A stretch of 64,000 bases of DNA from Myroides pelagicus. Lineage in GTDB: Bacteria; Bacteroidota; Bacteroidia; Flavobacteriales; Flavobacteriaceae. Shown in pieces: positions 4,044-20,342 of the stretch. Under the pieces are notes generated by a model. It did not search any database, had not been told where the DNA came from, and saw only the letters and a list, made by a program, of their open reading frames with translations. Within the stretch, counting starts at the first letter, position 1, and each line of letters opens with the position of its first letter. The stretch spans positions 62,001-126,000 of the forward strand of contig NZ_WMJY01000002.1 in assembly GCF_009711055.1 (NCBI RefSeq). Reading direction: 5' to 3'. The position numbers were made by a program, and so were the translations under genes.

Positions 4044-4050
4044 CGTTGTG

Positions 4051-4121: not shown

Positions 4122-4172
4122 TTCTGCGTTTCGTGGGGCAAATATAATAACTTTTATTTTAATAATCCTAGC

Positions 4173-4698: not shown

Positions 4699-4715
4699 GC
4701 TTGACCTTAAGTCGG

Positions 4716-5681
4716 TTATTTTTTCTTTAAGTTACCATACTCGTCATATAGTTCCTCATTGATTGGCTCTGGGTTGATTAGATTACCATACTCATCGTAT
4801 AGCTCTTCATTAATCGGTTCTTTGTTAATTAAGTTGCCGTATTCGTCGTATAATTCCTCATTGATTGGTTGAGTATTAATTAAATTACCATATTCATCAT
4901 ATTGTTCTTCTTTGATGTCTAAATAATCTAGTGCATTTGTATTGTTCTGTTTGTCATAGTACTCATCGTAATCTTTGTAAAGATTAGCAATTTCCTCTAG
5001 TGTCAATACTCTGTTTTCTTCATCTACGATACCATTTTCTTTATTTCGGTATTCTTCTATAAGATCACGTTTTTGCGTTTCATAAGCTTTTTTAGCAATA
5101 TTTCGCTGTGCGTAGTAGATTTTGCGATCGTATTTGTATTGTTTGTATATCCTCTTTGTTTCTATTTTATATTCGTGATTTAAATCTCTTAGAACAGTTT
5201 TTAAGTCTTTTTCCTCTTCTTTAACGGTATTGTTTTTCTTGATAATAGCCCATTGATCGATTTGTTCTTTGTTTAATGTTCTACTAATAAAGTTCTCATA
5301 CGATACAAATAATTTTCGTACACGAGCTTCTTTTTCAATAGGGTGCATTATCTTATTACTGTTTATGGTAAAAAGATCTCTTTTGATGTATTCATTTTTG
5401 ATATTGAAAGCTATAGCTTGTTCGTTTGTCAGTTTTAATTCTTGTTGGTTGTCTAAAATTAATTTGACATCTGTATATTCTACGATTACATTTTCTTCTT
5501 TTTTCTGATCTCTTTCTTTTTCAGCTTTTTTCTGTGCCTTTAAAAGTTCTTTCTCAGCCTTTCGAATCTCTTTTTCGGCTTCTTTTTCAGCTTTTAAGGT
5601 CTCCTTATCTTCTCCATTTTGAGCAAATGAGGTAGAGGTAATAGCAATGGTTGCTAGAAGTATGGTAAATATTCTTTTCAT
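4716..5681 (-). CDS. Secreted coiled-coil protein with C-terminal 17-residue repeats
   Basis: This 321-residue protein starts with a signal peptide (cleavage likely after TSFAQ, about residue 21). It has a highly charged Lys/Glu stretch (about 25-65) expected to be helical, and a middle domain of about 190 residues with many Lys, Tyr and Glu. From residue 258 to the end there are three full copies and one partial copy of a 17-residue unit, E-E-x-Y-D-E-Y-G-N-L-I-N-x-x-P-I-N. The copies differ at DNA level mainly by synonymous changes, so the peptide sequence appears to be under selection. I do not recognise the family. The location is periplasmic or outer surface. Confidence 0.8.
   Translation of the reverse strand: MKRIFTILLATIAITSTSFAQNGEDKETLKAEKEAEKEIRKAEKELLKAQKKAEKERDQKKEENVIVEYTDVKLILDNQQELKLTNEQAIAFNIKNEYIKRDLFTINSNKIMHPIEKEARVRKLFVSYENFISRTLNKEQIDQWAIIKKNNTVKEEEKDLKTVLRDLNHEYKIETKRIYKQYKYDRKIYYAQRNIAKKAYETQKRDLIEEYRNKENGIVDEENRVLTLEEIANLYKDYDEYYDKQNNTNALDYLDIKEEQYDEYGNLINTQPINEELYDEYGNLINKEPINEELYDEYGNLINPEPINEELYDEYGNLKKK
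4719..4910 (-). repeat. 51-bp tandem repeat, 3.75 copies, inside the secreted coiled-coil gene
   Basis: The period is 51 bp (17 codons). The peptide core YDEYGNL is unchanged in all four units, while codons vary (for example TAT/TAC, GAT/GAC, GGT/GGC and TTA/CTA forms). The last copy is cut short and replaced by a Lys-Lys-Lys end. Confidence 0.92.
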
Positions 5682-5919
5682 TCCAATTTTTTTTATATTT
5701 TCTTTTCCCTAATTAAAATCAATATTACAAATTTATAATAAATAATGGTATGTTAATTTGCTTTTGCTTCCTTTTTATCTACTCGAATTTAAAAAGAAAG
5801 TTTTTCGTTCAAACACAATTCCTTTGATTTCTTATAACGTTTGATATAGGTGTTTATTGTATGGGGTTTAATTCTTTTGTATTGTTAATTAAATGAGTTT
5901 TATTTATTTATAATCATAT

Positions 5920-6605: not shown

Positions 6606-7043
6606 ATGAAATCATTCTTCTTATTGATTGTAATATTTTTTATAGGTGGTACTTTTAAGGGAAGTGCTCAGCAATTAATGACTTCTCAATTCTTTGAATA
6701 CATAGATACACAGGATATGGGTAATATCAAGGAAGAATTGGAACTTTTTCGATTTGCCGTACTTGGTAGCAGAGAAAAAGAAGGGAAGCACTCAACCGCT
6801 TTTCAGAAGAAAAGTTCCTTAGGAGAGGAGTATATTACAATAGTTGTAGACTCTGTGTATTTTAAAATTTTTTACAAAACAACTTTTTCACCTACTTATG
6901 ATCATTACAAACAGCAATTGTTAATAGGGAGTAAGAATTATCTTAAAACGTTGAATAACACAAAATACTATGGGCTTTATGATATAATTGTAGGTTTTAA
7001 CGATGAAACAAAGGTGATTTCATTTATTAAAGAAGTCAAGTAA
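6606..7043 (+). CDS. Secreted hypothetical protein
   Basis: This 145-residue protein has a cleavable signal peptide (basic start, hydrophobic core, cleavage likely after GSAQ near residue 22). The mature part is alpha/beta with no Cys and no motif I recognise. It follows the cytochrome gene by 64 nt on the same strand and may be co-transcribed, but no functional link is evident. Confidence 0.75.
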   Translation: MKSFFLLIVIFFIGGTFKGSAQQLMTSQFFEYIDTQDMGNIKEELELFRFAVLGSREKEGKHSTAFQKKSSLGEEYITIVVDSVYFKIFYKTTFSPTYDHYKQQLLIGSKNYLKTLNNTKYYGLYDIIVGFNDETKVISFIKEVK

Positions 7044-7787
7044 ACCTATTGTTTCTTTGGTTGAATTACATCTCGTCACGTCTTTTTTTTAAATCATAAA
7101 AGTTTACAATTAGTATAGCAGTGGTTATTCACGTAAAGTTATAATGATATTATGTGTTAGGTCAAATATGTAATAAGTGAGTCACTGAACAGTCGTTTTA
7201 TTTCCTCTTAATCATGAATAGGCTAAAGGGTAGTGACTATCATATTGTACCGATAGAATTGATAGCAAATTATTGTTTCAGTCAATCGTTTTTTTTATTT
7301 TCAAACATTTTTCTTCTTATCTATTCTATTACTAAAAGGAAGGAGTAGATCGATATTTGCCTATATAGGCATACATACTTTAGTCTTTTAAAACACCTGA
7401 AACTTAGGTAGAAAATAGGGCTTTTGTTGCCAAGCTTGTGCTATGCCTGCAGTATACGTGCAGTATAGTAGCCCAGAAACATGTTCTTGGCAAGGAAAGT
7501 GCACGCATACTGCACGTATAGGTCAAGAATGTGTGGTTAAGATATAGTGCTATGGGGATTATAGTCTATAAGTCGCTCAACTTGTGTTGACGAATTAGAA
7601 TAAATTGATCTGTTAATAATAAATAGAGTTTCAGTTACTCAATTGTTTAAGTGAAGTTCAGTTTTGAACTATGTATTTAAAGTACGCAAAATCGTTTTTT
7701 AGAGTCTGGTATATTGTATTGTAAGTTGATCAAAATTTTAAGGAATGAACTAAAGTTTTTTCCTGAATGAACTCCCCTAAAAAAATA
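7044..7787. other. Gene-poor intergenic stretch carrying a dispersed repeat element
   Basis: About 740 bases without a supported gene. It holds repeat element A at 7423-7529. The rest is AT-rich with no tRNA, riboswitch or good promoter seen. One 44-codon ATG frame (7214-7348) has no supporting features and is not called. Confidence 0.7.
7423..7529 (+). repeat. Dispersed intergenic element, copy A (107 bp)
   Basis: It begins TTTGTTGCCAAG and ends GGTCAAGAA. Two inverted repeats are interleaved: arm a TTGCCAAG (7427-7434) pairs with CTTGGCAA (7486-7493), and arm b TATACGTGCAGTAT (7453-7466) pairs perfectly with ATACTGCACGTATA (7507-7520). Copy B (24779-24885) has the same length and arm order on the other strand, and copy C (55826-55940) is a diverged relative. 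It carries no coding capacity. The family is not recognised. Confidence 0.9.
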
Positions 7788-7817
7788 AACCCCTCATACA
7801 CAAATTGTTGAAGGGTT
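7788..7817 (-). terminator. Terminator of the tandem tRNA transcript
   Basis: On the minus strand AACCCTTCA pairs with TGAGGGGTT (one wobble) and is followed by TATTTTTTT. It lies directly past the 3' end of the second tRNA. Confidence 0.75.
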
Positions 7818-7823
7818 CTTTTG

Positions 7824-7897
7824 TGGTCCCACCTGGGCTCGAACCAGGGACATGCTGATTATGAGTCAGCTACTCTAACCAACTGAGTTATAGGACC
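7824..7897 (-). tRNA. tRNA with CAU anticodon (Ile2 or elongator Met), copy 1
   Basis: Complete cloverleaf on the minus strand: acceptor GGTCCTA / TGGGACC, anticodon loop CTCATAA (CAT), T-loop GGTTCGAGCC, discriminator A. A CAU anticodon can mean elongator Met, or Ile2 after lysidine modification. Positions 4-69 and 5-68 are both C-G, the pairs reported to favour TilS (Ile2) over Met in E. coli. That would point to Ile2, but other tRNAs of this genome are needed to decide. It is not initiator-like: the anticodon stem lacks the three G-C pairs. Confidence 0.93.
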
Positions 7898-7923
7898 GGT
7901 CTCTTGACCGTAAAATTTCGTGG

Positions 7924-7997
7924 TGGTCCCACCTGGGCTCGAACCAGGGACTTGCTGATTATGAGTCAGCTACTCTAACCAACTGAGTTATAGGACC
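7924..7997 (-). tRNA. tRNA with CAU anticodon (Ile2 or elongator Met), copy 2
   Basis: Same cloverleaf as the copy at 7824-7897, with one difference in the variable loop (AAGTC instead of ATGTC). The two genes are 26 nt apart and are probably one transcript, this copy first. Confidence 0.93.
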
Positions 7998-8066
7998 AGT
8001 TAAAGCTGCGTTTAACGGGTGCAATATTACTGCGTTTTATTGGTTTTTGCAAGAGAAAAAACAAAA

Positions 8067-8468
8067 TTATCTAATTTCTTGACATAATTCTATTAGGACT
8101 CCGTTGGTCGTTTTTGGGTGAAGAAAGGCAACTAGCTTATTGTCAGCACCTTTTTTGGGTGTTTCGTTTATTACTGAGAATCCTTCTGCTTTCAGACGTA
8201 GAATTTCTTCTTTTATATTATCTACTTCAAAAGCGATATGGTGAATACCTTCACCTTTTTTTTCGATGAATTTAGCGATAGGACTATCTGGATTTGTTGC
8301 TTCTAGAAGTTCTATTTTGTTCGGTCCTGTTTGAAAAAAAGAGGTGGTTACTCCTTCGCTTTCGACTGTTTCTTGTTTGTATGCGGGTGTATTGAATAGT
8401 TTTTCAAATAATAAGTTAGAGGCTTTTATGTCTTTGACAGCAATGCCTATATGTTCAATCTTTTTCAT
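8067..8468 (-). CDS. mce: Methylmalonyl-CoA epimerase
   Basis: With the start at 8468 the protein has 133 residues, the usual length. It is a vicinal-oxygen-chelate fold of two beta-alpha-beta-beta-beta modules: KKIEHIGIAV at the start with metal ligand His6, GEGIHHIAFEVDN near residue 75, and VLIELCQE at the end with the ligand Glu. The enzyme interconverts (R)- and (S)-methylmalonyl-CoA in propionate and odd-chain metabolism. The in-frame upstream extension to 8537 is rejected because it would include the promoter box at 8491-8498 and overlap rbfA. The gene is divergent from rbfA. No mutase gene is in the window. Confidence 0.95.
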   Translation of the reverse strand: MKKIEHIGIAVKDIKASNLLFEKLFNTPAYKQETVESEGVTTSFFQTGPNKIELLEATNPDSPIAKFIEKKGEGIHHIAFEVDNIKEEILRLKAEGFSVINETPKKGADNKLVAFLHPKTTNGVLIELCQEIR

Positions 8469-8490
8469 ATCTTTATTTTTGGGTGATATA

Positions 8491-8498
8491 CAAATATA
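8491..8498 (-). promoter_or_regulatory. TAnnTTTG -7 box (TATATTTG) for mce
   Basis: On the minus strand TATATTTG lies 22 nt before the mce ATG, giving a very short leader. It also excludes the longer start of mce. Confidence 0.6.
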
Positions 8499-8523
8499 AC
8501 AAAGTTTGCAATTTAAAAAATTG

Positions 8524-8531
8524 TATTTTTG
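8524..8531 (+). promoter_or_regulatory. TAnnTTTG -7 box (TATTTTTG) for rbfA, near-leaderless
   Basis: TATTTTTG ends only 4 nt before the rbfA ATG at 8536. TTTG at 8505-8508, 15 nt upstream, is a possible -33 element. Transcription would begin at or within a few bases of the start codon. Confidence 0.6.
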
Positions 8532-8535
8532 CAGC

Positions 8536-8928
8536 ATGGAAACGAATAGACAGAAAAAAATGGGGGCATTATTGCAAAATGATATCGTTGATATTTTGCA
8601 AGGAGAAGTGCGTAAAAACGGGATATCAAATTTGATTATCTCTGTTTCTAAAGTTAATATATCATCAGATTTATCTATAGCTAAAGTATATTTGAGTATT
8701 TTCCCTGTGGATAAAGGGGGGGAGTTGTTGAAAGCTATTCAATCTAATTCGCCTTTAATTAAACATGAATTAGCAAAACGCGTTAGACATCAATTGCGAA
8801 AAGTACCAGATTTAAACTTCTATATAGATGATAGCTTAGAGTATATTGACCAAATCGATAAGGCATTAAAAGGGGATGAAAACCCAATTGAAAACCGTGA
8901 TTTATTGGAAAAAAGAAAAAAGAAATAA
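8536..8928 (+). CDS. rbfA: Ribosome-binding factor A
   Basis: This 130-residue protein has the KH-type RbfA fold: RQKKMGALLQNDIVDIL at the start, ISVSKVNISSDLSIAKVYLS in the middle, and LAKRVRHQLRKVPDLNFYID with the family's Arg-rich helix. It matures the 5' end of 16S rRNA in the small subunit and is needed at low temperature. The start at 8536 is preferred because upstream codons overlap the promoter box. Its stop codon directly abuts the TTG start of the next gene, so the two are probably translationally coupled. Confidence 0.96.
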   Translation: METNRQKKMGALLQNDIVDILQGEVRKNGISNLIISVSKVNISSDLSIAKVYLSIFPVDKGGELLKAIQSNSPLIKHELAKRVRHQLRKVPDLNFYIDDSLEYIDQIDKALKGDENPIENRDLLEKRKKK

Positions 8929-10143
8929 TTGAACTTCTCGTACTACATCGCTAAGCGATACGCTTTTAGTAAAAGTAAGAATAAAGCGATTAATATTATA
9001 ACAGCAATTGCTTCTGCTGGTATAATTGTGAGTGCTATTGCGATGTTTGTAGTATTATCTGTATTTAGTGGGTTGCGTACCTATTCTTTATCATTTGTCA
9101 ATGATTTAGATCCTGATTTAAAGGTTTATCCTGAGGAAGGAAAGAGCTTCTTCGTAGGAGATAATCAAGTGCAGCAGTTGTGGGAGTCAGGACTTTTTGA
9201 AGGTGTTAGTCGTGTCATAGAGGATAGGGTGCTTATCAATTATAAAGAAAAGCAAACGGTAGTCTATATCAAAGGGGTAGATTCTGATTTTACCTATGTG
9301 AGTGATTATGATGAAAAAGTTGAGTACGGCAATTGGCTTGAATATGATACCAAAGAGTGTGTAGTTGGGCTAGGTGTAGCTAGACTACTTTCTTTGGGGT
9401 TATATGATAATGAAAACTCTTTTGAAGCAATAGCTATTAAGCCTGGAAAAGGGGTTATTGATAACCCTGAGTCTGGATTTCTACGCAAGAATTTCTTTCC
9501 TGTGGGAGTCTATTATGTATCTAATGATGAGCTTGATGACAAGTATATTTTTGCTGAGATAGATGAGGTTCGCCAATTATTAAGTCTTTCTGATAGACAT
9601 ATTAGCAGTTTGGAGCTGAAGTTGACTCAAGGAGTATCTGAGCGAGAAGCAAAGAAATTGTTGGGACAAGTCTTTGGGACAAGTGTTCTGGTTAAGAATA
9701 AAATTCAGTTAAACGATGCTTTGTATCGCATGTTGAATACGGAGAATTTTGTAGTTTATTTAATTTTTGTCTTGGTCGTTATCATGGCTCTATTTACGTT
9801 AGTGGGTGCATTGATTATGATAATTTTAGAGAAACAAGCAAATATTCGTACGCTGTTTAACTTAGGGGTTGAGCAGAAAAGCTTGAAGCGTGTGTTTCTA
9901 TATCAAGGACTGATTATCACTATTGTTGGTAGTGTGATGGGTATATTTTTAGGTGTGCTATTGGTTCTTTTACAAGAAAAATTTAGTTTATTGATGATTC
10001 GAGAAGGGTTAGCCTATCCTGTTGAATTTGACTTTTACAATGTTGTCATTGTGTTTTTATCGATTACTGTGTTAGGGTATGTGGCATCTTATATAGCCTC
10101 AACTCGTGTAAATAGAAATTACTTAGATCTGCCAAAAGAGTAA
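8929..10143 (+). CDS. ABC transporter permease, LolC/LolE-FtsX family
   Basis: This 404-residue inner-membrane protein has the MacB-core plus FtsX layout: one N-terminal membrane segment (about 20-45), a large periplasmic domain (about 46-270), and three C-terminal membrane segments (about 275-300, 325-348 and 370-390). It resembles the permease of the lipoprotein-releasing (Lol) system, which moves lipoproteins to the outer membrane. The start is TTG at 8929, immediately after the rbfA stop. The N-terminus (NFSYYIAKRY) fits family members, so the unusual start is credible. The ATPase partner is not in this window. Another FtsX-type exporter cannot be excluded. Confidence 0.9.
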   Translation: MNFSYYIAKRYAFSKSKNKAINIITAIASAGIIVSAIAMFVVLSVFSGLRTYSLSFVNDLDPDLKVYPEEGKSFFVGDNQVQQLWESGLFEGVSRVIEDRVLINYKEKQTVVYIKGVDSDFTYVSDYDEKVEYGNWLEYDTKECVVGLGVARLLSLGLYDNENSFEAIAIKPGKGVIDNPESGFLRKNFFPVGVYYVSNDELDDKYIFAEIDEVRQLLSLSDRHISSLELKLTQGVSEREAKKLLGQVFGTSVLVKNKIQLNDALYRMLNTENFVVYLIFVLVVIMALFTLVGALIMIILEKQANIRTLFNLGVEQKSLKRVFLYQGLIITIVGSVMGIFLGVLLVLLQEKFSLLMIREGLAYPVEFDFYNVVIVFLSITVLGYVASYIASTRVNRNYLDLPKE

Positions 10144-10371
10144 TAATCGATTAAATCTATCTTATATTTTTAATTTTTATGTTTGACACTTGATTTTTTT
10201 AAGTGTTCATATTCCTGTGTTTGAAGTTATAGCTTACTAGGAAAACGCTCCAATGTAAAATACCTTGGTTTTAGTGTATTTAGGTACATATTATTTTGTA
10301 TTTTTAGTTCTGAATATCGGTTTTAGAATGTTACTATAAAATAGTGTCTTATTTGTAATAAGAGGCTTAAT

Positions 10372-10379
10372 TATATTTG
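10372..10379 (+). promoter_or_regulatory. Promoter of the SEL1-HSP90 cluster (TTTG-N16-TATATTTG)
   Basis: TATATTTG at 10372-10379, with TTTG at 10352-10355 sixteen nt upstream, is close to the Bacteroidota consensus. The leader would be about 55 nt. The rest of the gene-free stretch 10144-10371 shows only a weak hairpin (GACACTT / AAGTGTT near 10184-10206), perhaps ending the permease transcript. Confidence 0.6.
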
Positions 10380-10439
10380 GTTGTTTTTTTAAAATCGGTT
10401 TAATACAATAAAATAAATACACTTGATTAGATTAAAGTT

Positions 10440-12968
10440 ATGGGAACATTTAATACAGAATACTTGAATTATGTAAGTCAGGTAGCAAACGATTCAAAAT
10501 CTTTGGTTGATCACGCGCGTGAGCTACTTCAGTTAAACAATTATGAAGATCCGCATATGTGGTTTAAAGCACATGCAGTATGTATGTTTGCTACTCAAAT
10601 TGGAGAAGAAAGTGAGGAGATTATCAAGTTATACAATCAGTTGTTTGAAGAATCAAATTGTATTCATAGTGGGATGAGATTAAATGAAGCAGATTACCGT
10701 TTGTGGTTTGCAGATGTTCAGGAGTTAAATAGAGTATATATCGAAAAAGGGTACGCACGTGCGTATGCCTATCAATATGAGTTATACGAAAGAGGGCGTT
10801 ATGGCTTTAAAAATAAAGAAATTTGCAAAGAACTATTAGATAAAGGTTGTTTAAGTGGTGATGATTATTGTCAAATATACAAAGGGAACTGTATATACTA
10901 CGGTATCTTTGGCTATGAAGAGAATAGAGAAGAAGGGTTGCGATTAGTTACTGAAATAGCAGATCGCACAGGAGGAGATTTAGCTGAGTTGTTCTTATTA
11001 AATATGAAGACTCGTTCATGTGAAACGAGTGAAGAGTTATGGGCAATTATTGAACAATATGATAAACTGCTTAACATAGATAAGAAAGGGAAGTATATAC
11101 TCGCTGATTACTATCTACGTGTAGAAAATGATGCGAAAGCTGTCGAGTCTTTATTAGAAGGAATTGATAACGGTAGTCCATTTTGCAATTACCTTATGGG
11201 GTTATTAATTGTCAATGGTCGTTTTGCTTCGTTTGGTTATACAGAAGAACAAGGAAGGGCTTATTTAGATGTAGCTTTTGATTATGGTGTTATTCACGCA
11301 GGATTTATACAAGGCTATTTTTATTTGTATCCAGTAGATGGAGGAGCAAATGATTTTGAGCATGCACTTCCTTATTTAAAAGCTGCTGCACTGTATAATT
11401 CTCCAGAGGCATTACTTGAATTGGCAATGTTATCAATGTATCATAACGATTATAAAGATATTGCGCAAGGGAGGGTATATTTGGATAGAGCAGTAGAAGA
11501 AGAATTTGTTAAAGCGTATACAGAAAAAGCTTATATGCTGTTAGATTTCCCTGAAGTAGAACGCAATGTTCCTGAAGCAAAACGATTGTTGGAACTAGCG
11601 ATGGATAAAGGAAATGATTATGCACCTTACCGTTTGGGATTAGGATATCAAAATGCTGAGTTTGAGGAAGAGTCAGATTATGAAAAAGCTTTGTATCTAT
11701 ATGAATTAGCTGCAGAGCGCAATAATTTGTCAGGATTGGAAATGGCAGGAAGATATAATCGATATGGTTATGTAAATGAGCCTAATCTAGCAAAAGCTAT
11801 AGCGCATTATGAGCGTGGAATTGCCGATTTTGGGTCAGATTATTGTCGCGTAGAATTAGCTATGATGTTAGTGAATGGAGAAGGACAAGAGCCAGATGCA
11901 GTTCGTGCAGAGCAATTGTTTCATGAGGCATTGGAAAACGGGTATATATACGCATCGTTACGACTTGGATTTTTATATGAAGATGGTTATTTAGGAGAAT
12001 CAGATCCAGTTAAAGCGAGAGAATATTTTGAAAAAGGTGCTTTAGGCGAGCAGCCATTGGCAGAGTCAGTGTACCATTTGGGACGTTGTTATCGCTATGG
12101 AATTGGAGGAGAAGAAGATCACGTGAAAGCAATGGAGTTATTCGAGCAAGCATTAGAATTAGGTTTTGTAGATGCGAATGTAGATATTGCTTTAGCTTAT
12201 GAAGAAGGAACTTGTGGAAAGGAGAGTAATCCTCAAGAAGCGATTAAATACATGAGTATAGCTGCTGAGGCAGGTATTAATTATGCGCAGTATAAGTTAG
12301 GATCTTATTATCTTTTTGGTTATGACATGGACGTTAATTTAGAAGAAGGTAAAAAGTGGTTGATGTCTGCTGTAGATAATGGTTCTCCATTAGCTATGCT
12401 AACGATGGGGGATTATTACTTATATGGATATGAACCAGAAACTGTCTATGATCCTGCTTTTGAGTTTTACAAAGGAGCCGAAGAAAGAGGCTATATATCG
12501 GAAGGATTAGGTATCTGTTATCAATATGGTGTAGGAGTAGAAAAAGATGAGACACTAGCTTATAGTTGTTATACACGTGCAGCAGAACGTGGATACGATT
12601 CGGCTACTTACCGTTTAGCACAATGTTATTATTTTGGAATTGGTACAGATAAAGACAGAGTAGAGGCGTTTCATTATTTTAAAGAAGTTGCGGATAGAGG
12701 TAATATAGATGCAGCTGGTTATGTAGGGATAATGTTAGTAAGTGGAGATGGTGTAGAGCAAGATGCAGAATATGGGGTAAGTTATCTAATACAAGCGGCA
12801 GATGCGGATAATGATTTAGCTCAATATGAATTGGCAAATTGTTATTTGAAGGGTGAAGGAGTAGAACAAAGTGATGATCTGGCAATGGAATGGTATAGTA
12901 AAGCTGCAGAGAACGGAAATGAGGACGCTCAAAAAATAATAGGAGGGCCACGTAAACGAAGAAGATAA
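10440..12968 (+). CDS. SEL1-repeat protein of the HSP90 cluster
   Basis: This 842-residue soluble protein consists of SEL1-type helical repeats from about residue 130 to the end. The pattern is A-x-Y-x-L-G-x-x-Y-x-x-G, then D, K/E-A, Y/F, A-x-x-x-G about every 36-38 residues (for example AQYKLGSYYLFGYDMD, ATYRLAQCYYFGIGTD). There is no signal peptide. The first 120 residues are helical without clear repeats. SEL1 repeats form superhelical protein-binding scaffolds. Its stop overlaps the HSP90 start by one base (TAATG), so the two are translationally coupled. It probably works as an adaptor for that ATPase, but the partner proteins are unknown. It ends in a basic tail (PRKRRR). Confidence 0.93.
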   Translation: MGTFNTEYLNYVSQVANDSKSLVDHARELLQLNNYEDPHMWFKAHAVCMFATQIGEESEEIIKLYNQLFEESNCIHSGMRLNEADYRLWFADVQELNRVYIEKGYARAYAYQYELYERGRYGFKNKEICKELLDKGCLSGDDYCQIYKGNCIYYGIFGYEENREEGLRLVTEIADRTGGDLAELFLLNMKTRSCETSEELWAIIEQYDKLLNIDKKGKYILADYYLRVENDAKAVESLLEGIDNGSPFCNYLMGLLIVNGRFASFGYTEEQGRAYLDVAFDYGVIHAGFIQGYFYLYPVDGGANDFEHALPYLKAAALYNSPEALLELAMLSMYHNDYKDIAQGRVYLDRAVEEEFVKAYTEKAYMLLDFPEVERNVPEAKRLLELAMDKGNDYAPYRLGLGYQNAEFEEESDYEKALYLYELAAERNNLSGLEMAGRYNRYGYVNEPNLAKAIAHYERGIADFGSDYCRVELAMMLVNGEGQEPDAVRAEQLFHEALENGYIYASLRLGFLYEDGYLGESDPVKAREYFEKGALGEQPLAESVYHLGRCYRYGIGGEEDHVKAMELFEQALELGFVDANVDIALAYEEGTCGKESNPQEAIKYMSIAAEAGINYAQYKLGSYYLFGYDMDVNLEEGKKWLMSAVDNGSPLAMLTMGDYYLYGYEPETVYDPAFEFYKGAEERGYISEGLGICYQYGVGVEKDETLAYSCYTRAAERGYDSATYRLAQCYYFGIGTDKDRVEAFHYFKEVADRGNIDAAGYVGIMLVSGDGVEQDAEYGVSYLIQAADADNDLAQYELANCYLKGEGVEQSDDLAMEWYSKAAENGNEDAQKIIGGPRKRRR

Positions 12969-14749
12969 TGGAGGATAATCAGAAACAATATCAATTTCAA
13001 GTAAATATGAAAGGAATGATAGAGTTGTTGTCAGAGCATATTTATAGCTCTCCGACAGTCTTTATCAGAGAATTACTACAAAATGGGATGGATGCCGTTA
13101 CTATGCGTAAAGGTATTGATCCAACATTTATAGGACAGATAACAGTAACATTTAATGGAGATCAGTTAATCTTTCAAGACAACGGTATTGGTTTAACACA
13201 AGATGATGTTCATCAATTTTTATCAGTAATAGGACAGAGTTCAAAACGTGGAGAGTTAGCCGACAAGGATTTGATTGGAAAATTTGGGATTGGTTTGTTG
13301 TCTTGTTTGGTTGTTAGCGAAACGATTGTGGTAGAGACTCGATCTCTTTATAAAGAAGAGTCTGTTCGCTGGATAGGACATGCAGATGGTACTTATGATG
13401 TAGAACAAATTGACTTATTACCTGAAATAGGGACAAAAGTTATTTTGAATGCAAAGAGAGCTTGGCGTACACTATTTAAGAAATCAGAGGTAAAAGAAAA
13501 TATCTTGTTTTATGGTAGTGCTCTACCAATAGCAGTGAGCTTAGTAGAGGAAGATACGACAGAGTTAATATTAGATGGTAATCCAGTATGGTTAGATCCA
13601 GAAAGTTCTAAGGAGGACTTGTTGCATTATGGAAAAGAGGTATTTAAGACTAAATTTTTAGATGTATTTAGACTTGAATCAACTACAGGGGAACTTCAAG
13701 GTGTAGCTTATATTATCCCTAATAAAGTAAATTCAAGCTCAACCAAAGAGCACAAGATCTTCCTAAAGCGCATGTATTTGTGTGATCAGGCTACAAATTT
13801 ATTGCCTGAATGGACTTCTTTTGTTCGCTGTATTATTAATTCAAATGCATTGCAGCCTACAGCTTCAAGAGAATCATTGATGAATAATACGGTTCTACAA
13901 GAGACTAAAAAAGAGTTGAGTGAGTGTTTTAAAGACTATCTAAAGACTCTATCCCTGACCAATATCGATGTACTAGAAAAGATTATTTCGATACATCATA
14001 TATACATTAAATCTCTAGCAGCAATAGATACAGAGATAATGAAAATGTTTGAAGATTATCTACCTTTTGAAACAAATCAAGGGTTGATGTCATTTGGAAT
14101 GATTAAGGAGTCTTACCGAGAGATTTATTATACCCCTTCGTTAGACGACTATAGACAGATTCGTCGAATAGCAGGTTCTCAAAAGAAATTAGTTATAAAT
14201 GCGGCCTATAGTTATGAGACTGATTTAATAGATAAAATTAAGCGATTGAATTCGGATTTAATAATTGAAAAGATTGCTCCGAATGATATTTTACAAGAGT
14301 TTGAAGCTGCTATTGTAAAAGATGATACTATTCATGAGTTTGTCAATAAGGCAAATGCAGTATTGAAAAAACATTATTGTAAGGCAGAAGTCAAACGATT
14401 TGAGCCTAAAGATACAACTGCTATATACATAGCAAATGAAGATGCGCTGTCTAGTAAGAATATACAGAGTTTGTCAGAATCTGCTAATCCATTTGCTTCC
14501 ACATTAAAGCATTTCAAAAAACAAGAAGAGGTAATGCCGACGCTTTGCTTTAATCAACAAAATGAGTTGGTTGAAAAAATTATGGTGATCGATGATCAGG
14601 AGTTGTTTGAAGCTTTGATTAATGTATTGTATGTACAATCATTGATGTTAGGAGGGTACACGATTAATAAGCGAGAAATGGATACTTTTAATGATGCATT
14701 ATATCAGTTTATGATTCTGGGAATGTCTAGTTTTTTACCTAAAATATAA
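12968..14749 (+). CDS. Divergent HSP90-family chaperone ATPase
   Basis: This 593-residue protein has all HSP90 (GHKL) ATPase motifs: E35 and N39 in RELLQNGMDA, D71 in QDNGIG, the lid GKFGIG at 104-109, GTKVI near 155, and the catalytic-loop Arg301 in TASRES. It differs from ordinary HtpG: it is shorter, with a reduced and diverged C-terminal dimerisation region from about residue 330, and its start (MKGMIELLSEHIYSSP) follows the divergent bacterial HSP90 clade rather than canonical HtpG. There is no MEEVD-type tail. It sits between a SEL1 protein and four helical paralogs, so it probably serves a dedicated set of clients rather than general folding. Whether the genome also has htpG is not visible here. 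Confidence 0.93.
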   Translation: MEDNQKQYQFQVNMKGMIELLSEHIYSSPTVFIRELLQNGMDAVTMRKGIDPTFIGQITVTFNGDQLIFQDNGIGLTQDDVHQFLSVIGQSSKRGELADKDLIGKFGIGLLSCLVVSETIVVETRSLYKEESVRWIGHADGTYDVEQIDLLPEIGTKVILNAKRAWRTLFKKSEVKENILFYGSALPIAVSLVEEDTTELILDGNPVWLDPESSKEDLLHYGKEVFKTKFLDVFRLESTTGELQGVAYIIPNKVNSSSTKEHKIFLKRMYLCDQATNLLPEWTSFVRCIINSNALQPTASRESLMNNTVLQETKKELSECFKDYLKTLSLTNIDVLEKIISIHHIYIKSLAAIDTEIMKMFEDYLPFETNQGLMSFGMIKESYREIYYTPSLDDYRQIRRIAGSQKKLVINAAYSYETDLIDKIKRLNSDLIIEKIAPNDILQEFEAAIVKDDTIHEFVNKANAVLKKHYCKAEVKRFEPKDTTAIYIANEDALSSKNIQSLSESANPFASTLKHFKKQEEVMPTLCFNQQNELVEKIMVIDDQELFEALINVLYVQSLMLGGYTINKREMDTFNDALYQFMILGMSSFLPKI

Positions 14750-14754
14750 GTGTA

Positions 14755-15831
14755 GTGTATAGACTAGAAATACAGAAAATACTATTAGCTATAGAAGAGA
14801 ATTTTTCTGATCCAGAGTATTGTATGAATTTGTTGAAGCAAGGTATACAAATAGCAGATAAACACAATGATTTGGCTTGGGGTATAGACCTGCGCTATGA
14901 TTTAATTCACGAAGAGCGAGCAACGTCTTCTTGTAGTGAGAGTATAGCAGCATTTGCTTGGATATTAAATATATGTGATCTGTATCCTGAGGAATTTGAC
15001 GAGTCAGAGTTTATGTTAGAGTATCAATGGATGTTGTGCTCTGCTTATAGCAATTCACTTTTAACACTCGATCAGATAAATGAAGTTGCCAAAGACCTAT
15101 ATATTCGACTGGATAGAAATAATTTATCTAAGCGAGGATATTATTTTACAATGGCCGAGTTTGCACATAATTTGGGAGATTATGTGACGAGTGAAGAATA
15201 TATAGCAAAAGGAGTTCTAGAAGCTTATGACGACGAGAATACTGAAGCCAGTGAATATGACTATCGCATAGAGCATTTGTGTTTGATTAAGGATTTTGAT
15301 CAAGCTATTCGGTTGATGGATCAGATGGAGGTCAAAAAGTTAGCTGCTTTTGCACTGCCTTTTGAAACTTATTGTGCAATGGCATATACGATGGCACGTG
15401 CAAATGATAAACGAGCAATAATATATCTCAATAGAGCTAAAGAGGCTTTCGATCATTTGAAAGAGGTTAATAGTTCAATGCTGTATAGCGTTGTTCGTTT
15501 AACCTATGCCATGTACCAATTGGGTGATGAAATGTATTTGCAATTATATGAACGTATAGCGGAATGGGAAATTGATGCAGAAGATGACTTACTATATATG
15601 TTAAGTAGACACATGACTGTGATCTTTCGCAAAGGCGGAACCTTAACTTTAAACCTTTCTTCTCGATTGATTTTCTATGAAGAAACAGGGATCTACGATT
15701 TAGGTCAGTTAGCTGTTTATTATGAAGGTGTTGCTAAGCAATTAGCGACTCAATTTGATCATCGCAATGGGAGTTTGTTTGCGTCAAGTGAATATTCAGA
15801 ATTGCTATTAGAAAACACAAAAAAAGACTAG
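14755..15831 (+). CDS. Helical paralog 1 of the HSP90 cluster
   Basis: This 358-residue soluble protein has no signal peptide and no recognised domain name. It is the first of four tandem relatives that share LEIQKxLL at the start, ADxxxDxxWGxxxR near residue 35, a FAW(I/M)L segment near 65, and near the C-terminus an E-T/D-G-x-YDLGxL pattern followed by FDxRNG. The regular amphipathic helices resemble a TPR-like solenoid, but consensus TPRs are not obvious. The start is GTG at 14755, five nt after the HSP90 stop, chosen because the other three paralogs begin at the same alignment point. The function is unknown; an HSP90 client or co-chaperone is an inference from position. Confidence 0.85.
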   Translation: MYRLEIQKILLAIEENFSDPEYCMNLLKQGIQIADKHNDLAWGIDLRYDLIHEERATSSCSESIAAFAWILNICDLYPEEFDESEFMLEYQWMLCSAYSNSLLTLDQINEVAKDLYIRLDRNNLSKRGYYFTMAEFAHNLGDYVTSEEYIAKGVLEAYDDENTEASEYDYRIEHLCLIKDFDQAIRLMDQMEVKKLAAFALPFETYCAMAYTMARANDKRAIIYLNRAKEAFDHLKEVNSSMLYSVVRLTYAMYQLGDEMYLQLYERIAEWEIDAEDDLLYMLSRHMTVIFRKGGTLTLNLSSRLIFYEETGIYDLGQLAVYYEGVAKQLATQFDHRNGSLFASSEYSELLLENTKKD

Positions 15832-15833
15832 TC

Positions 15834-16898
15834 ATGAATTATAACTTGGAAATACAAAAAATTCTGCTGAAAGTAGAGCAGATGGAAAAATTTAGTGATA
15901 AAGTTGTTGCTTTGAAAGAGGCAATTCAAATAGCAGATCAACATAATGATATTGATTGGGGATTTGATTTGCGTTTAGATTTGATAAGAAATGAACGGAA
16001 TACTTCGCGCTGTGAAGAGAGTTTCCCTGCTTTTGCTTGGATATTAGCTACAAGTGATAAAAATGAAGGATATTTTGAAGAGTCAGATTTTTTGTGGGAA
16101 TATAAATGGATGTTCTGTTCGGCTTATCGCAATGTTTCTATTCCTTTAGAACAAGTATTGGAGATTGGAGAAGATTTAAAAGCACGCTTAACTAAAAATG
16201 GATATAGTCTAAGAGCGTATTACAATGTAATGACAGGCTTACATCTACACTTAAGAGATTATGCGAAGGCTCAAGAATATGTAGCTTTAGCAGATAATGA
16301 GGTGATTGATGATATGACGAATTGCCCAGCTTGTGAATTGGATACTAAAGTGGAGATATTAGTTGATTTAGGAAAAATGGAAGAAGCTTTGGCAAAAGCA
16401 CAAGATCTTATTAATAAGAAACTAACATGTTATTCAATGCCTTTTCAAACGTTTTGTTGTTTTGCTTATAATTTATATCTTTTAGAAGATGATCGTGCAA
16501 CTACGTATTTTGATAAGGCACTAGAAGAGTATTATGCTCATGATAAATACGATAGTTCAGTGGGGTATTCAATGGCTCAATTGATTTGTTATATGCACGC
16601 AACTAATCATCCAGATACTTGGACGTTCTTTAGTCGTGTAGCTGAATGGCAGTTGGGAGCAGAAGATGTTCATATTTATAATTTTGCAAGATATATGAGC
16701 GTAATAACGAAAGGTAAAGGAGAAGTAAACTTGGCATTATCCCCTCAGTTACCTTACTATAGAGCAGACGGTGTATATGATATTTCAGTTTTGCACGCTT
16801 ACTTTAAGCAATTAGCTTTTGAATATGCAGATGCTTTTGATCGACGAAATAAACAGGACGGTGTGTACCGTCAAGAAGTAGAGAGTTTACTTCGATAG
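15834..16898 (+). CDS. Helical paralog 2 of the HSP90 cluster
   Basis: This 354-residue protein is closely related along its whole length to paralog 1, from which it is separated by 2 nt. Shared blocks include LEIQKILLKVE, ADQHNDIDWGFDLR, ESFPAFAWILA, EYKWMFCSAYRN, SLRAYY and, near the end, GVYDISVLHAYFKQLAFEYA then FDRRNK. It contains a CxxC (NCPACE, near residue 165) absent from its relatives, possibly incidental. It is the last gene before an intrinsic terminator, so SEL1-HSP90-paralog 1-paralog 2 form the core operon. No function is assigned. Confidence 0.88.
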   Translation: MNYNLEIQKILLKVEQMEKFSDKVVALKEAIQIADQHNDIDWGFDLRLDLIRNERNTSRCEESFPAFAWILATSDKNEGYFEESDFLWEYKWMFCSAYRNVSIPLEQVLEIGEDLKARLTKNGYSLRAYYNVMTGLHLHLRDYAKAQEYVALADNEVIDDMTNCPACELDTKVEILVDLGKMEEALAKAQDLINKKLTCYSMPFQTFCCFAYNLYLLEDDRATTYFDKALEEYYAHDKYDSSVGYSMAQLICYMHATNHPDTWTFFSRVAEWQLGAEDVHIYNFARYMSVITKGKGEVNLALSPQLPYYRADGVYDISVLHAYFKQLAFEYADAFDRRNKQDGVYRQEVESLLR

Positions 16899-16903
16899 AT
16901 AAT

Positions 16904-16939
16904 AAAAGCGGAAAGAATATATTCTCTTTTCGCTTTTTT
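16904..16939 (+). terminator. Terminator inside the paralog array
   Basis: AAAAGCG pairs with CGCTTTT, and AAAGAATA pairs with TATTCT(C)TTT, giving a long stem followed by a T run. It separates paralogs 1-2 from paralogs 3-4, so the last two genes probably depend on read-through or on a second promoter in 16940-17006. Confidence 0.85.
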
Positions 16940-17006
16940 ATTGTGTGTTATGCTACACGTACTAGGAAATGAATAACTAAGTAATAGAAAATGATTAGAC
17001 TAATAG

Positions 17007-18080
17007 ATGGATAACTATATATTAGAAATACACAAAACATTATTAAAGAGTCAAGGTTTATCTAATCCACAAGATCGGATAAAACTAATTAATAGTGCAG
17101 TTGCATTAGCAGATAAACACAATGATGTTCTTTGGGGATTTGAGACGCGAATGTTTTTGATTAATGCAGAAAATTATACACCTAGCTCTCGTTATAGTTT
17201 TCCAGCATTTGCTTGGATTCTAGACCAACATGAGCGAAATATAGGGTTATTTGAGGAGAAGGAGTTTTTACTAGAGTATAAGTGGCTTTTAGGAACTGCT
17301 TATGGGTTGACAAGTATTTCGCTGGATCAAATTCATCGAATAGCTAATGATTTTAAGGAAAAGCTGCTGGCAAATGGATATAGTTTACGGGGATTGTATC
17401 ACCTTGAGGCTTTAGGGTTACAGCAATTTAGAGATTTCGAAAAGGCAAAAGAAGTGATAGCATTAATTAAAGCATCGCCTTTAGATGAGTTATCTGACAA
17501 TCCACCTTTTGAACAAACGTTAGAGGTGTTTAATTATTTAGGTACTGGAGATATTGATGCAGCATTAATTGCAGCCCAAGAGTTATTTTTGGATCGATAT
17601 GAAGGACTGAATACTGCTTTTGAGACCTATACTATTTTTGCAATGGAGTTTTATCGAATAAAAGATTCTCGTCAATTTGAATACTTTGAGTTAGCCCAAA
17701 GAAAACTTCCTGTTTTTGATTCAAATGACTGTATAACAAATATTCGTTCTCGAGTTTTGTATATGTACTTATTACATCAATACGAAGATGAGGTTTGTTG
17801 GGATTATTTTGAAAAAATATGTATATGGGCACATGAGAGTGATGATTATTATTCTTTCTTTTTTCTAAAGTACGCTTCTTGTATGTTGAAAAATGGAGGA
17901 AAACGCAAGTTTAGTTTCCCTGTTTATTTGCCATATTATAGAGAAGGGATGTATGATTTAGGAGAGTTATTTGTCTATTTTAAGGCTAGAGCATTGGAAT
18001 ATGCGCTAGCTTTTGATAAGCGAAATAACAATGGAAATTTTGTAAGAGAATTAGATAATTTGTTAGCTTTAAGTAAATAG
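17007..18080 (+). CDS. Helical paralog 3 of the HSP90 cluster
   Basis: This 357-residue member of the same family has LEIHKTLLKSQG at the start, ADKHNDVLWGFETR near residue 33, FPAFAWILDQHERN near 64, EYKWLLGTAYG near 88, SLRGLYHLEA near 127 and GMYDLGELFVYFKARALEY near 322. It is about as distant from paralogs 1 and 2 as they are from each other. It follows the internal terminator by 67 nt. No TAnnTTTG box is obvious in that gap. The spread of sequence among the copies suggests old duplications kept for different partners rather than recent amplification. Confidence 0.87.
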   Translation: MDNYILEIHKTLLKSQGLSNPQDRIKLINSAVALADKHNDVLWGFETRMFLINAENYTPSSRYSFPAFAWILDQHERNIGLFEEKEFLLEYKWLLGTAYGLTSISLDQIHRIANDFKEKLLANGYSLRGLYHLEALGLQQFRDFEKAKEVIALIKASPLDELSDNPPFEQTLEVFNYLGTGDIDAALIAAQELFLDRYEGLNTAFETYTIFAMEFYRIKDSRQFEYFELAQRKLPVFDSNDCITNIRSRVLYMYLLHQYEDEVCWDYFEKICIWAHESDDYYSFFFLKYASCMLKNGGKRKFSFPVYLPYYREGMYDLGELFVYFKARALEYALAFDKRNNNGNFVRELDNLLALSK

Positions 18081-18111
18081 GTTTTAAGATAATCAGAAAA
18101 GAATACAAATC

Positions 18112-19194
18112 ATGGCAACTAATTACGGTTTAGAAATACAGAAATTGTTACTACAAGTAGGAAGTAGTAAAGATGCTCGTAAAAATATAAAACTGCTAAA
18201 GCAAGGAGTCAATTTGGCTGATGCCAGTCAGGATTTAGATTGGGGGATTGACTTGCGAATGCGGTTGATTAATATGGAGTCTGAAATATTTGAGTGTAAG
18301 GAGAGTTTTCCTGCTTTTTCATGGATGTTAGAAAAGTATAATAGTAATCCAGATTATTTTGATGATGAAGATTTCTTATGGTTTTATAATGCCATGTTTT
18401 CTTCATGTACTACCAGTGTTTCTATATCAAAAGAAAAGATGATTGAAATCGTGGAAGATTACAAGGTAAAATTAGTAGTAGCGGGGTATAGTTTACGTTC
18501 TTATTATCATTTATTAGCGTTATTTTATATTCGTACCAAAAACTTTGAAAAGTCTTTAGAAGTAATTGATTTAGCTGAAGCAACAATTATTGATGCTCTG
18601 AGTGGAGGAAGTAATCAGACATGGGAAAAGGAGATGAGGGTAGGAAACTTATTAGCCTTAGATAGCTTAGAGGAAGCACTCGTAGTTATACAGCCACTGT
18701 TTTTAGTTCGTGATGAGTATAATCTTACGGCATCTTGTGCTTATATTGAAATAGCCTTTCACTATGCTAAATTAAGAGAAGACGAGATTGCTAAAGAGTA
18801 TTTATCAACTGGGTTGAGTTTGTTTGATTTAGGAGCTCTATATAATACGAATTACGTTGTGACTACAAAAGCGATGCTGATGTATTTACTCAATCGATAT
18901 GATATGGAAGGAACTTATTCTCTTTTTGAAGAACTAAGTCGATGGGGAGAAGAAATTGAAGATTTCTTGTTTTTCTTTTTTGCGAAGTTTGCGGCTGTTA
19001 TATTTAAAGGAGGTGGGAAAGCTAGATTAGATTTACAATCTCATTTATCCATATATCAAGATACTGGAGAGTATGATTTGCATGTATTGCATGAGTTTTA
19101 TAAAACGAAGGCTTTCGAATTAGCAGATCAATTTGACTTGAGGAATGGTAATACTTGGCAACGTGATGAATTAGAACGTTTGTTAATGAACTAA
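18112..19194 (+). CDS. Helical paralog 4 of the HSP90 cluster
   Basis: This 360-residue protein is the last copy of the array. It keeps LEIQKLLLQVG, DLDWGIDLRMRLIN, ESFPAFSWMLE, SLRSYYHLLALFY and GEYDLHVLHEFYKTKAFELA followed by FDLRNG. The gap to paralog 3 is 31 nt, so the two are one unit. The array ends in a terminator that also faces the convergent gene at 19230. As with the other copies, there is no signal peptide, no catalytic motif and no recognised family. Confidence 0.87.
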   Translation: MATNYGLEIQKLLLQVGSSKDARKNIKLLKQGVNLADASQDLDWGIDLRMRLINMESEIFECKESFPAFSWMLEKYNSNPDYFDDEDFLWFYNAMFSSCTTSVSISKEKMIEIVEDYKVKLVVAGYSLRSYYHLLALFYIRTKNFEKSLEVIDLAEATIIDALSGGSNQTWEKEMRVGNLLALDSLEEALVVIQPLFLVRDEYNLTASCAYIEIAFHYAKLREDEIAKEYLSTGLSLFDLGALYNTNYVVTTKAMLMYLLNRYDMEGTYSLFEELSRWGEEIEDFLFFFFAKFAAVIFKGGGKARLDLQSHLSIYQDTGEYDLHVLHEFYKTKAFELADQFDLRNGNTWQRDELERLLMN

Positions 19195-19200
19195 ACAAAG

Positions 19201-19226
19201 AAAGGAGACTACAATAGCTCCTTTTT
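19201..19226. terminator. Terminator closing the HSP90 cluster
   Basis: AAAGGAG pairs with CTCCTTT across a 10-nt loop, followed by TTT. It lies between convergent stop codons at 19194 and 19230. Confidence 0.85.
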
Positions 19227-19229
19227 ATA

Positions 19230-20342
19230 TTAAAATAAACTTATTTGTCCTTCTGAAGTAGAGGTGTTGTTTTTCTTTTCCTTCTTTTTACTGTCTGATT
19301 TACTGTTTTTGGGCTCAACGAAATCTTTTGTTGTAGATGCTGTATTTGCCTCAAATATATCTCCTTGTATAGTTAACTTTTCTTCATCTAAGTTGTTTAT
19401 ACTAGGCATATTAATTGTTGCTGATACGTCGTTATTTAAACCTCTTTTAGGGAAGTCAAAGTATGCTGCAAAAGTACCTGTTTCTTTTTGAAGCTTATCG
19501 TTTTTAGAGTTTTCTTTTGATGTGTCATCTAGTTCTAGAATAAGATGGTTGTTTTCATCAAGTGTCTCACTAAATAATAGAGAAGAATTCTCTAAAGGAA
19601 TGTCTTTTGTTTGTCTTGATTGAGTATTAATTTCTTGTTTTTCAAGAGTATCTAGTTGGCTAGTTACATTTAATTCACTTTGTTCGTTAGAAATCAAGTC
19701 ATTACAATTTGGAATTATCTTGATTTCATCAAATGATCCATCTAGTCTAAATTGAATAGTAGTCTTGTTTGTATTATCTATTTCCTCGTTTTCTAAGTTT
19801 TTTTCAACTAACGGTTGTTGTGCGTTGGTTGTTGTATCGATTACCTTGGCACAAGGAGTTTTGCCAGTGTTTTCTTGTTGGTCAAGTGTTTCTTGTACCG
19901 GAAAAAGCAAAGGATTGATGTTAGTTTGAACCTCACGATTCATATGTAAGTCAATGGTCTCCTCTTCAAGATCTCTAAAATCATCTTCTTTTGCAAAGAT
20001 GTCCACCTTGTCTTTTAATTCTAAGATCAGTTTCTTTATCTTCTTTATGTATATATGATCATTGAATATGCCTTTTTCTTCTACAGACTGTATTAACTTG
20101 AATAAAGAGTATGCTTCGTGATATTTAAGTATAATCGAATGCTTTTTGTTGTGATCAAGAATTGATGTTTGTTTTTGTATGTTTTTCGCTTTGTCTTCCA
20201 ACTTAGTTATAAGATCTTCTTTTACACTAATTAAAAGTGCATCTGTAACATTTTCAATGATATAGTCATTGGTTTGTTTGACCATTTGTATAACTGTGAG
20301 TAAGATATCATTATTAAGTTTAAGTTGAATTTTTGCAATCAT
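19230..20342 (-). CDS. Low-complexity protein ending in a sliding-clamp-type motif
   Basis: This 370-residue protein is not recognised. Residues 1-125 are predicted helical (Ile/Lys/Leu-rich, coiled-coil-like), with no signal peptide. Residues 130-350 are rich in Asn, Gln, Thr, Asp and Glu and look disordered. Residues 345-365 are strongly basic (KKKEKKNN). The last five residues, QISLF, match the pentapeptide consensus QL(S/D)LF by which DNA polymerases, MutS and Hda bind the beta sliding clamp, and a basic linker before it is common in such tails. The gene is convergent with the HSP90 cluster. A DNA-replication or repair role is an inference from the tail only. Confidence 0.75.
   Translation of the reverse strand: MIAKIQLKLNNDILLTVIQMVKQTNDYIIENVTDALLISVKEDLITKLEDKAKNIQKQTSILDHNKKHSIILKYHEAYSLFKLIQSVEEKGIFNDHIYIKKIKKLILELKDKVDIFAKEDDFRDLEEETIDLHMNREVQTNINPLLFPVQETLDQQENTGKTPCAKVIDTTTNAQQPLVEKNLENEEIDNTNKTTIQFRLDGSFDEIKIIPNCNDLISNEQSELNVTSQLDTLEKQEINTQSRQTKDIPLENSSLLFSETLDENNHLILELDDTSKENSKNDKLQKETGTFAAYFDFPKRGLNNDVSATINMPSINNLDEEKLTIQGDIFEANTASTTKDFVEPKNSKSDSKKKEKKNNTSTSEGQISLF

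Follow-up and report, generated by a model that had tools for sequence, protein, structure and literature searches.

The 64,000-nucleotide stretch of the Myroides pelagicus genome analysed here, referred to as the window (assembly GCF_009711055.1, contig NZ_WMJY01000002.1, positions 62,001 to 126,000), contains a locus that encodes a SEL1-repeat protein, an HSP90-family ATPase and four related helical proteins, P1 to P4 (Table 1). The key finding from our analysis is that this HSP90 belongs to a family separate from HtpG and that, in every genome of its genus in which we detected it, it is followed directly by the gene of a partner protein with a predicted tetratricopeptide repeat (TPR)-type fold. 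The ancestral partner most likely carried a CxxC...C cysteine site, which duplicated copies have lost. We lean towards the view that the locus encodes a dedicated bacterial HSP90/TPR co-chaperone machine, in which the cysteine site would serve a metal or redox function.

A non-HtpG HSP90 family and its partner

The assignment of the HSP90 to a family of its own is well supported by profiles, motifs and phylogeny. The protein scores 625.2 bits against the NCBIfam equivalog NF010683 ('HSP90 family protein'; cut-off 455) over residues 5-585, and fails the HtpG model NF003555 with 177.6 bits (cut-off 371). Members of NF010683 from Listeria and S. globosus reach 799 and 825 bits, and the M. pelagicus genome encodes a separate HtpG that scores 646 bits on the HtpG model. 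In a tree of 43 HSP90 rows, which used 15 of 33 HtpG rows, omitted locus L100 (the same as M. albus) and included a cut E. coli row of 497 residues, a branch with support of 100/99 parts 25 rows of the paired clade from the 15 HtpG rows. The five clade members whose sequences were printed share the motifs REL[LI]QN and P[TV]ASRE, where a Rhizobium HtpG has RELISN and PLNVSRE. Bacteroidota members fall into two separate groups, and the HSP90s of genomes G289 and G432 group with that of Listeria (98/94); the placement of Listeria, Paenibacillus and G289 is uncertain because both this tree and the partner tree discussed below carry warnings about long branches and compositional heterogeneity.

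A preliminary description of the locus, made from its letters alone, had suspected such a separate clade, and had noted intact ATPase motifs and a C-terminal half both reduced and diverged. The motifs of the GHKL set are indeed present (E35/N39, D71-N-G-x-G and G104-x-x-G-x-G). The C-terminal half has indeed diverged but shows no reduction; by profile coverage it is complete, as the match to NF010683 spans model positions 3-595 of 604 and that to the HtpG model extends to position 612 of 614. The predicted structure of the HSP90 is fair (pLDDT 72.6) and aligns with full-length HSP90s up to about residue 587, with a root mean square deviation (rmsd) of 8-10 Å.

The distribution of the partner was followed in an even sample of 348 genomes of the window's genus (the genus draw), 18 of which encode an HSP90 above the NF010683 cut-off. 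The same 18 genomes all give a strong match to the partner profile, as against none of the 330 without the HSP90 (Fisher p 1.8e-30, assuming independent genomes, which relatives are not). The partner gene lies directly downstream of the HSP90 gene in all 18, as it does in locus L042 of a metagenome-assembled genome, and this pairing supports the label 'chaperone module' given in the preliminary description. In a draw of 296 genomes from the phylum, the HSP90 exceeded the cut-off in two, both of the window's genus, and a narrower profile built from P1 to P4 recovered the same two genomes and one further match, in G084 (E 6.5e-4), which has ordinary gene surroundings and no HSP90 of the clade and was taken as chance. 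As a control, an HtpG-type match is present in every one of the 16 other genomes that the phylum draw contains from this genus, and none of them has a strong partner match (one, G084, has the weak match just described); therefore, the partner tracks this HSP90 and not HtpG.

A scan of genome contigs yielded only M. albus and a Flavobacteriaceae metagenome-assembled genome, and the further genome draws covered the window's phylum, while the named members outside Bacteroidota come from plasmid and phage collections. In the plasmid collection, the partner adjoins the HSP90 in 6/6 records (two Listeria, one Paenibacillus and three Streptomyces, with L053 judged from tblastn coordinates); seen from the partner side, the HSP90 is found in six of eight records. 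A 6.6-kb contig labelled 'Bacteriophage sp.' also carries the pair. Because two plasmid-labelled records are chromosome-sized (NZ_LT559118.1, Nonomuraea, 11.85 Mb; NZ_CP030101.1, Listeria, 2.9 Mb), such matches are not to be taken as mobile. Listeria phage records with pieces of the HSP90 or the partner were left out of the counts, being short fragments. Viral contigs gave two HSP90-like matches, L126 and L127. The former (IMG/VR; 6984-10166) was set aside as a longer protein of a different family; it has 1060 residues, a long N-terminal part ahead of its HSP90-like ATPase region, and neighbours that look portal- and terminase-like by eye.

The four paralogs of 354-360 residues are related, as had been described, with P2, P3 and P4 being 39, 30 and 30% identical to P1 and 55 of 367 alignment columns invariant. 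They were said to contain no recognisable domain, and indeed none exceeds the cut-off of any Pfam, NCBIfam or PADLOC family; weak matches to DUF3146, Usg, RAxF_45 and others were below cut-off or unspecific and were rejected. The Pfam TPR models likewise gave no match over cut-off for the four, and weak matches in at most two of 12 family members per model. Structure prediction overturns this picture. The AlphaFold2 model of P2 is a confident, all-helical superhelix (pLDDT 94.3, pTM 0.90), whose best structural match is chain O of the anaphase-promoting complex (Z 22.0, rmsd 5.1, 319 residues aligned), which we take to be APC5, and TPR chains rank top in a profile search of the PDB with the partner family. 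The paralogs are thus predicted TPR-type superhelix proteins, P2 by its model and P1, P3 and P4 by homology to P2. A relationship between the paralogs and the SEL1 protein was also considered and rejected (hhalign probability 0.3%).

Several loci of the family have features of their own. At locus L043 of Listeria (12867-14084), the HSP90 and two Cys-bearing partners are followed by SMI1/KNR4-family and low-molecular-weight tyrosine phosphatase genes; the Listeria HSP90 gene is presumably lmo0942, which agrees with the neighbouring gene fri, and in the two papers identified this name occurs within gene lists or tables. At locus L049 of G289, a nucleotidyltransferase-like gene (7370-8113, read by eye) follows the single partner gene. 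The partner domain begins a 1033-residue protein in S. globosus (L044, 10870-13971), and two other Streptomyces have similarly long open reading frames (ORFs). In this protein and in that of Actinomyces oris (L051, 8001-11036), the partner domain forms the N-terminal third of 1011-1033 residues, and further TPRs follow.

The cysteine site and the duplication of the partner

The residues that are invariant among Cys-bearing partners include Cys164, Cys167, Cys199, Pro203, Asp336 and Arg338 (P2 numbering; alignment A2). This alignment holds 12 sequences from 11 loci and three phyla, with two copies from Listeria and one from every other locus; it does not include P1, P3, P4 or the copy of Priestia. 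In the P2 model, the first two cysteines, Cys164 and Cys167, are placed at the beginning of helix 165-178, and the third, Cys199, is in the loop ahead of helix 202-216. A cluster of the three cysteines is plausible because such helix ends neighbour each other in a TPR superhelix.

A Cys-bearing copy was detected in 17 of the 18 genomes of the genus draw, and in the remaining one, G335, P1 and P3 are separated by a contig break. All 17 unbroken loci contain a single such copy, and Listeria has two. Copy number varies widely among these genomes, from a single partner in five (G363, G461, G551, G289 and G432) to two in eight, three in two (G483 and G506) and four in two (G000 and G315); a P4 orthologue is found in M. 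albus only. In the partner tree, in which L049 was entered once, as G289, and from which L100 and the L054 and Priestia copies were left out, P1, P3 and P4 each form a clade, and P3 and P4 together are nested among the P2 sequences (92/93). The state of the cysteine site changes twice, once toward P1 and once toward P3 and P4, and the fork of P1, P2 and the G363 and G551 copies is unsettled. From this tree and the single Cys-bearing copy per unbroken locus, we conclude that one Cys-bearing partner most likely gave rise to the array by duplication and that each new branch lost the site. This history does not fit the preliminary view of the paralogs as four parallel clients, as it points to one ancestral partner, single-copy in five genomes, whose cysteine site is kept in P2.

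A related arrangement is found in a sister family of HSP90-like proteins. With NF010683, those of Pseudomonas and Xanthomonas obtain 293 and 277 bits, which is short of the cut-off but more than their 192 and 185 bits with the HtpG model; the Salmonella protein is 57% identical to that of Pseudomonas. All three carry PTASRE and have a protein of 764-774 residues encoded directly downstream, with weak TPR matches in Pseudomonas and Xanthomonas (a second, short Xanthomonas record contains only the start of the downstream gene). These downstream proteins share the motif RIDPxWxCxxCL, which aligns with the CxxC of the partners. The Pseudomonas HSP90/TPR pair is presumably PA1068/PA1069; the 'PA1068' in PMC9995270 is a strain number. 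A Nonomuraea relative of the downstream protein (29.5% identical) has no CxxC, and no HSP90-like ORF was seen in the 16-kb region examined. Overall, two of the three relatives without an adjoining HSP90 (Nonomuraea and Priestia) lack the CxxC and the third (A. oris) keeps it, a suggestive pattern in a small sample of sequences. More distantly, a Pseudanabaena plasmid (L047, 7944-12807) encodes an HSP90-like protein of 877 residues with a long C-terminal extension, with a TIR gene upstream and a TPR protein second downstream, an arrangement that may represent a conflict-type version of the HSP90/TPR theme.

Layout of the locus and the SEL1 protein

The ORF coordinates agree with the preliminary description of six consecutive plus-strand genes, the first two of which overlap by one base (Table 1). 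The gaps between HSP90 and P1 and between P1 and P2 measure 5 and 2 bases. Because a terminator-like hairpin lies between P2 and P3, the six genes are probably not one transcription unit, and we regard SEL1-HSP90-P1-P2 as the core operon, to which P3-P4 would be an addition. Gene order is the same in M. albus, whose HSP90 is 89% identical to that of the window, and a hairpin is found at the equivalent place (-15.3 kcal/mol), with similar ones recognised by eye in three other relatives. A terminator scanner called the M. albus hairpin on the minus strand only and did not call that of locus L111. Between the two species, the ratio of nonsynonymous to synonymous substitution rates (dN/dS) is 0.07-0.12 for the SEL1 protein and the four paralogs, values that are rough because the NG86 method was used with high dS; for the HSP90, dS is saturated and no ratio was obtained.

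Table 1. Genes and sequence features of the HSP90/TPR locus, in coordinates of the window
Feature	Position	Strand	Remarks
SEL1-repeat protein gene	10440-12968	+	842 aa; Pfam Sel1 match
SEL1 basic C-terminal tail GGPRKRRR	12942-12965	+	kept in relatives
HSP90-family ATPase gene, non-HtpG clade (NF010683 / PRK14083)	12968-14749	+	593 aa; by profile, tree and motifs
HSP90 short C-terminal tail GMSSFLPKI	14720-14746	+	trait of the SEL1-linked lineage
P1 gene, predicted TPR-fold partner without Cys site	14755-15831	+	358 aa; GTG start
P2 gene, ancestral-type predicted TPR-fold partner with intact Cys site	15834-16898	+	354 aa
CxxC...C site of P2 (Cys164, Cys167, Cys199)	16323-16430	+	invariant in alignment A2
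FDxRN signature of P2 (Phe335-Asn339)	16836-16850	+	common to all four paralogs
Terminator-like hairpin between P2 and P3	16904-16937	+	13 pairs, T-rich tail, -14.7 kcal/mol
P3 gene, predicted TPR fold, Cys site lost	17007-18080	+	357 aa
P4 gene, predicted TPR fold, Cys site lost	18112-19194	+	360 aa

The SEL1 protein matches Pfam Sel1 at 204.5 bits (cut-off 30.7, E 5.3e-62) in 10 stretches, and no further relative of it was found in the M. pelagicus genome. It had been placed at the core of the module, a role that we reject. Its gene lies upstream of the HSP90 gene in 16 of the 18 genomes of the genus draw. It is absent from G289 and G432, which have HSP90s with 34 and 37% identity to that of the window, and none is annotated near the HSP90 of Listeria or S. 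globosus (for the Paenibacillus locus and the remaining Streptomyces loci, the ORFs were listed without a repeat search). By its distribution, the SEL1 protein is instead a lineage-specific addition, perhaps a large adaptor.

Both proteins of the overlapping pair end in conserved tails. The SEL1 tail RKRRR or a close variant is present in 15 of the 16 listed relatives, the exception being L105 (G367), and an RRR tail is also present at L101, L104 and L113, where the HSP90 gene starts without overlap. At L105, the SEL1 gene (3472-5820) appears to be frameshifted near its 3' end (782 residues, with an odd tail), and HSP90, P1 and P2 are intact. The HSP90 tail GM[ST]xFLP[KE][FIL] is found in 16 of 18 listed rows; the exceptions, L049 and L107, are the rows that lack SEL1. 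It is tempting to speculate that these may be docking tails.

Downstream of the module, a minus-strand ORF of 370 residues (19230-20342) recurs in several relatives. Its C-terminal part, which ends in GQISLF or a close variant, is long, variable and of low complexity, and the ORF gave no Pfam match.

Proposed mechanism, alternatives and known systems

In the mechanism that we favor, the HSP90 would act as an ATP-driven dimeric clamp, distinct from the cell's own HtpG, and the TPR-superhelix protein from the neighboring gene would be its co-chaperone or client adaptor. The CxxC...C site of the ancestral partner would most likely bind a metal ion or act as a thiol switch, and could gate client binding or engagement of the HSP90 under stress. 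In the Myroides-like lineage, the machine would have gained a large SEL1-repeat adaptor, encoded upstream, and up to three duplications of the partner would have given rise to the Cys-less P1, P3 and P4, which probably handle different clients or sit elsewhere in the complex. The analysis itself establishes the identity of the genes, the HSP90 clade, the predicted fold of the partner, co-occurrence and adjacency, the order of duplication apart from some unsettled forks, and the cysteine site with its loss; physical interaction, the co-chaperone role, the metal or redox function and client specificity are our inferences.

A number of observations weigh against this proposal. The HSP90 of the window ends in SSFLPKI, and neither it nor the 18 listed relatives have an EEVD C-terminus of the kind used by carboxylate-clamp TPR domains; the idea that its tail is an EEVD equivalent was rejected on that end and on the tails of the listed relatives. 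The invariance of the cysteine site is partly a matter of row choice, because P1, P3, P4 and the Priestia copy were not in the alignment, and the closeness of the three cysteines is read from helix boundaries. The partners and the TPR proteins of Pseudomonas and Xanthomonas are at best weakly homologous (hhalign probability 32% and 3%), and the third cysteine has no aligned counterpart in the latter. Partner-like sequences also occur apart from the HSP90. An A. oris record has a partner with the cysteine site and no HSP90 of the clade (its chromosome was not searched), and a Priestia record has a weak partner (E 3e-3) with no cysteine site and, by ORF reading, no HSP90 nearby. In the genus draw, G599 and G614 gave weak partner matches without an HSP90 of the clade (E 1e-6 and 4.5e-6), which were set aside on their E-values and the missing HSP90. 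Finally, adjacency fits a co-chaperone and an obligate client alike.

This last point leads to an alternative that we regard as unlikely, although not far-fetched, in which the TPR protein is the obligate client of the HSP90, a private foldase or assembly factor, and works, for example, as a metal-containing sensor or scaffold. The TPR gene has expanded in tandem and the HSP90 gene has not, as would suit one chaperone with several clients, and the cysteine site could be a cofactor site that needs chaperoned assembly. However, TPR proteins are well-known partners of eukaryotic HSP90, and TPR repeats usually fold unaided; the P2 model, moreover, is a confident, regular superhelix, though it is uninformative on folding in the cell. 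Perhaps, instead, the HSP90 is a general accessory of stress response or proteostasis with many substrates, to which the TPR and SEL1 proteins are loose scaffolds. The surroundings are of a housekeeping kind, with RbfA and an FtsX-type permease encoded upstream in 16 of the 18 genomes, and the Listeria locus adjoins the non-heme ferritin gene fri. We nevertheless consider such a role improbable, as pairing with a single partner family throughout three phyla is more exclusive than it requires and the M. pelagicus genome also encodes a canonical HtpG.

It is more improbable still that the locus serves in conflict or phage defense, with the HSP90 switching an effector on or holding it in check. 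Such a system might show the sporadic distribution that was observed (2/296 genomes in the phylum draw and 18/348 in the genus draw) and the two separate Bacteroidota groups in the HSP90 tree, and the distant Pseudanabaena protein, with its long C-terminal extension, lies beside a TIR gene. On the other hand, Pfam and NCBIfam reveal no nuclease, toxin or other effector in the six proteins, in agreement with the preliminary description, which saw no defense hallmark. PADLOC matched the HSP90 only to the ATPase end of TmtA (model residues 23-123 of 1302) and the SEL1 protein weakly to Cas11f (E 0.006) and PtuA (E 0.18), with no matches for the paralogs, and the position next to RbfA and FtsX is stable in 16 of the 18 genomes.

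Returning to the co-chaperone proposal, a wider version of it would hold that this HSP90 branch has an obligate TPR co-chaperone with a metal- or redox-sensing CxxC site, a prokaryotic counterpart of the eukaryotic HSP90-TPR partnership that is also present in the sister family and was diversified in Myroides-like bacteria by Cys-less copies and SEL1. We put this forward tentatively and with considerable doubt. If a fixed TPR partner is indeed the rule, the pair would offer a minimal HSP90/co-chaperone system for biochemistry and a test of how the TPR partnership with HSP90 arose, and would provide functional hypotheses for unannotated genes of Listeria, Streptomyces and Pseudomonas. The cysteine site makes the metal or redox idea directly testable.

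Because it falls within a named NCBI family, the HSP90 protein itself is not undescribed, as the preliminary description had supposed for the whole module; no paper on this HSP90-TPR pair or on a module with the cysteine site was among the matches listed in our literature search. The one-line description of NF010683 / PRK14083, of which the window HSP90 is a member, does not include a TPR partner, tandem copies or SEL1. Canonical HtpG (NF003555) has the HSP90 architecture and ATPase motifs in common with it and differs in score, motifs and tree group. A further candidate for comparison is HTPG Group C, or hsp90C, an ancient non-A bacterial HSP90 lineage, and here identity with the clade is a guess from phyla and protein length alone. 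Group C is one of the HSP90 Groups A-C and has members in Firmicutes, Actinobacteria and Bacteroidetes (Chen et al., 2006; PMC1525184); a later study states that hsp90B and hsp90C were 'ignored throughout the analysis' and describes bacteria as being without identified obligate HSP90 co-chaperones (Press et al., 2013; PMC3708813). A 2012 review describes a specific HtpG function in a streptomycete as being without evidence (PMC3603443), and HtpG is reported to cooperate with the DnaK/DnaJ system (PMC10269695). Statements of this kind probably rest mostly on the HtpG/hsp90A branch.

Several known TPR regulators resemble P2 in structure. Domain III of MalT aligns with Z 21.0 and rmsd 5.3 over 313 residues, and the Rap/NprR regulators with Z 18.4 and rmsd 5.7 over 302 residues (4i9c) and Z 18.1 and rmsd 4.5 over 300 (NprR, 5dbk). 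The identities are 7-10% and the rmsd is high; TPR folds are widely alike, and a fold in common does not imply function. No Hop- or FKBP-type TPR domain was among the matches listed (50 structural entries). A parallel in concept is provided by the eukaryotic TPR co-chaperones such as Hop/Sti1, FKBP51/52 and PP5, where an HSP90 is also paired with TPR-fold proteins. Those co-chaperones are clamped to EEVD, however, whereas the window HSP90 has no EEVD and its partner is a predicted long superhelix with a cysteine site. Thus, the HSP90 family and the eukaryotic TPR partnership are known, and no dedicated bacterial HSP90-TPR module with a cysteine site was among the matches listed in our literature search.

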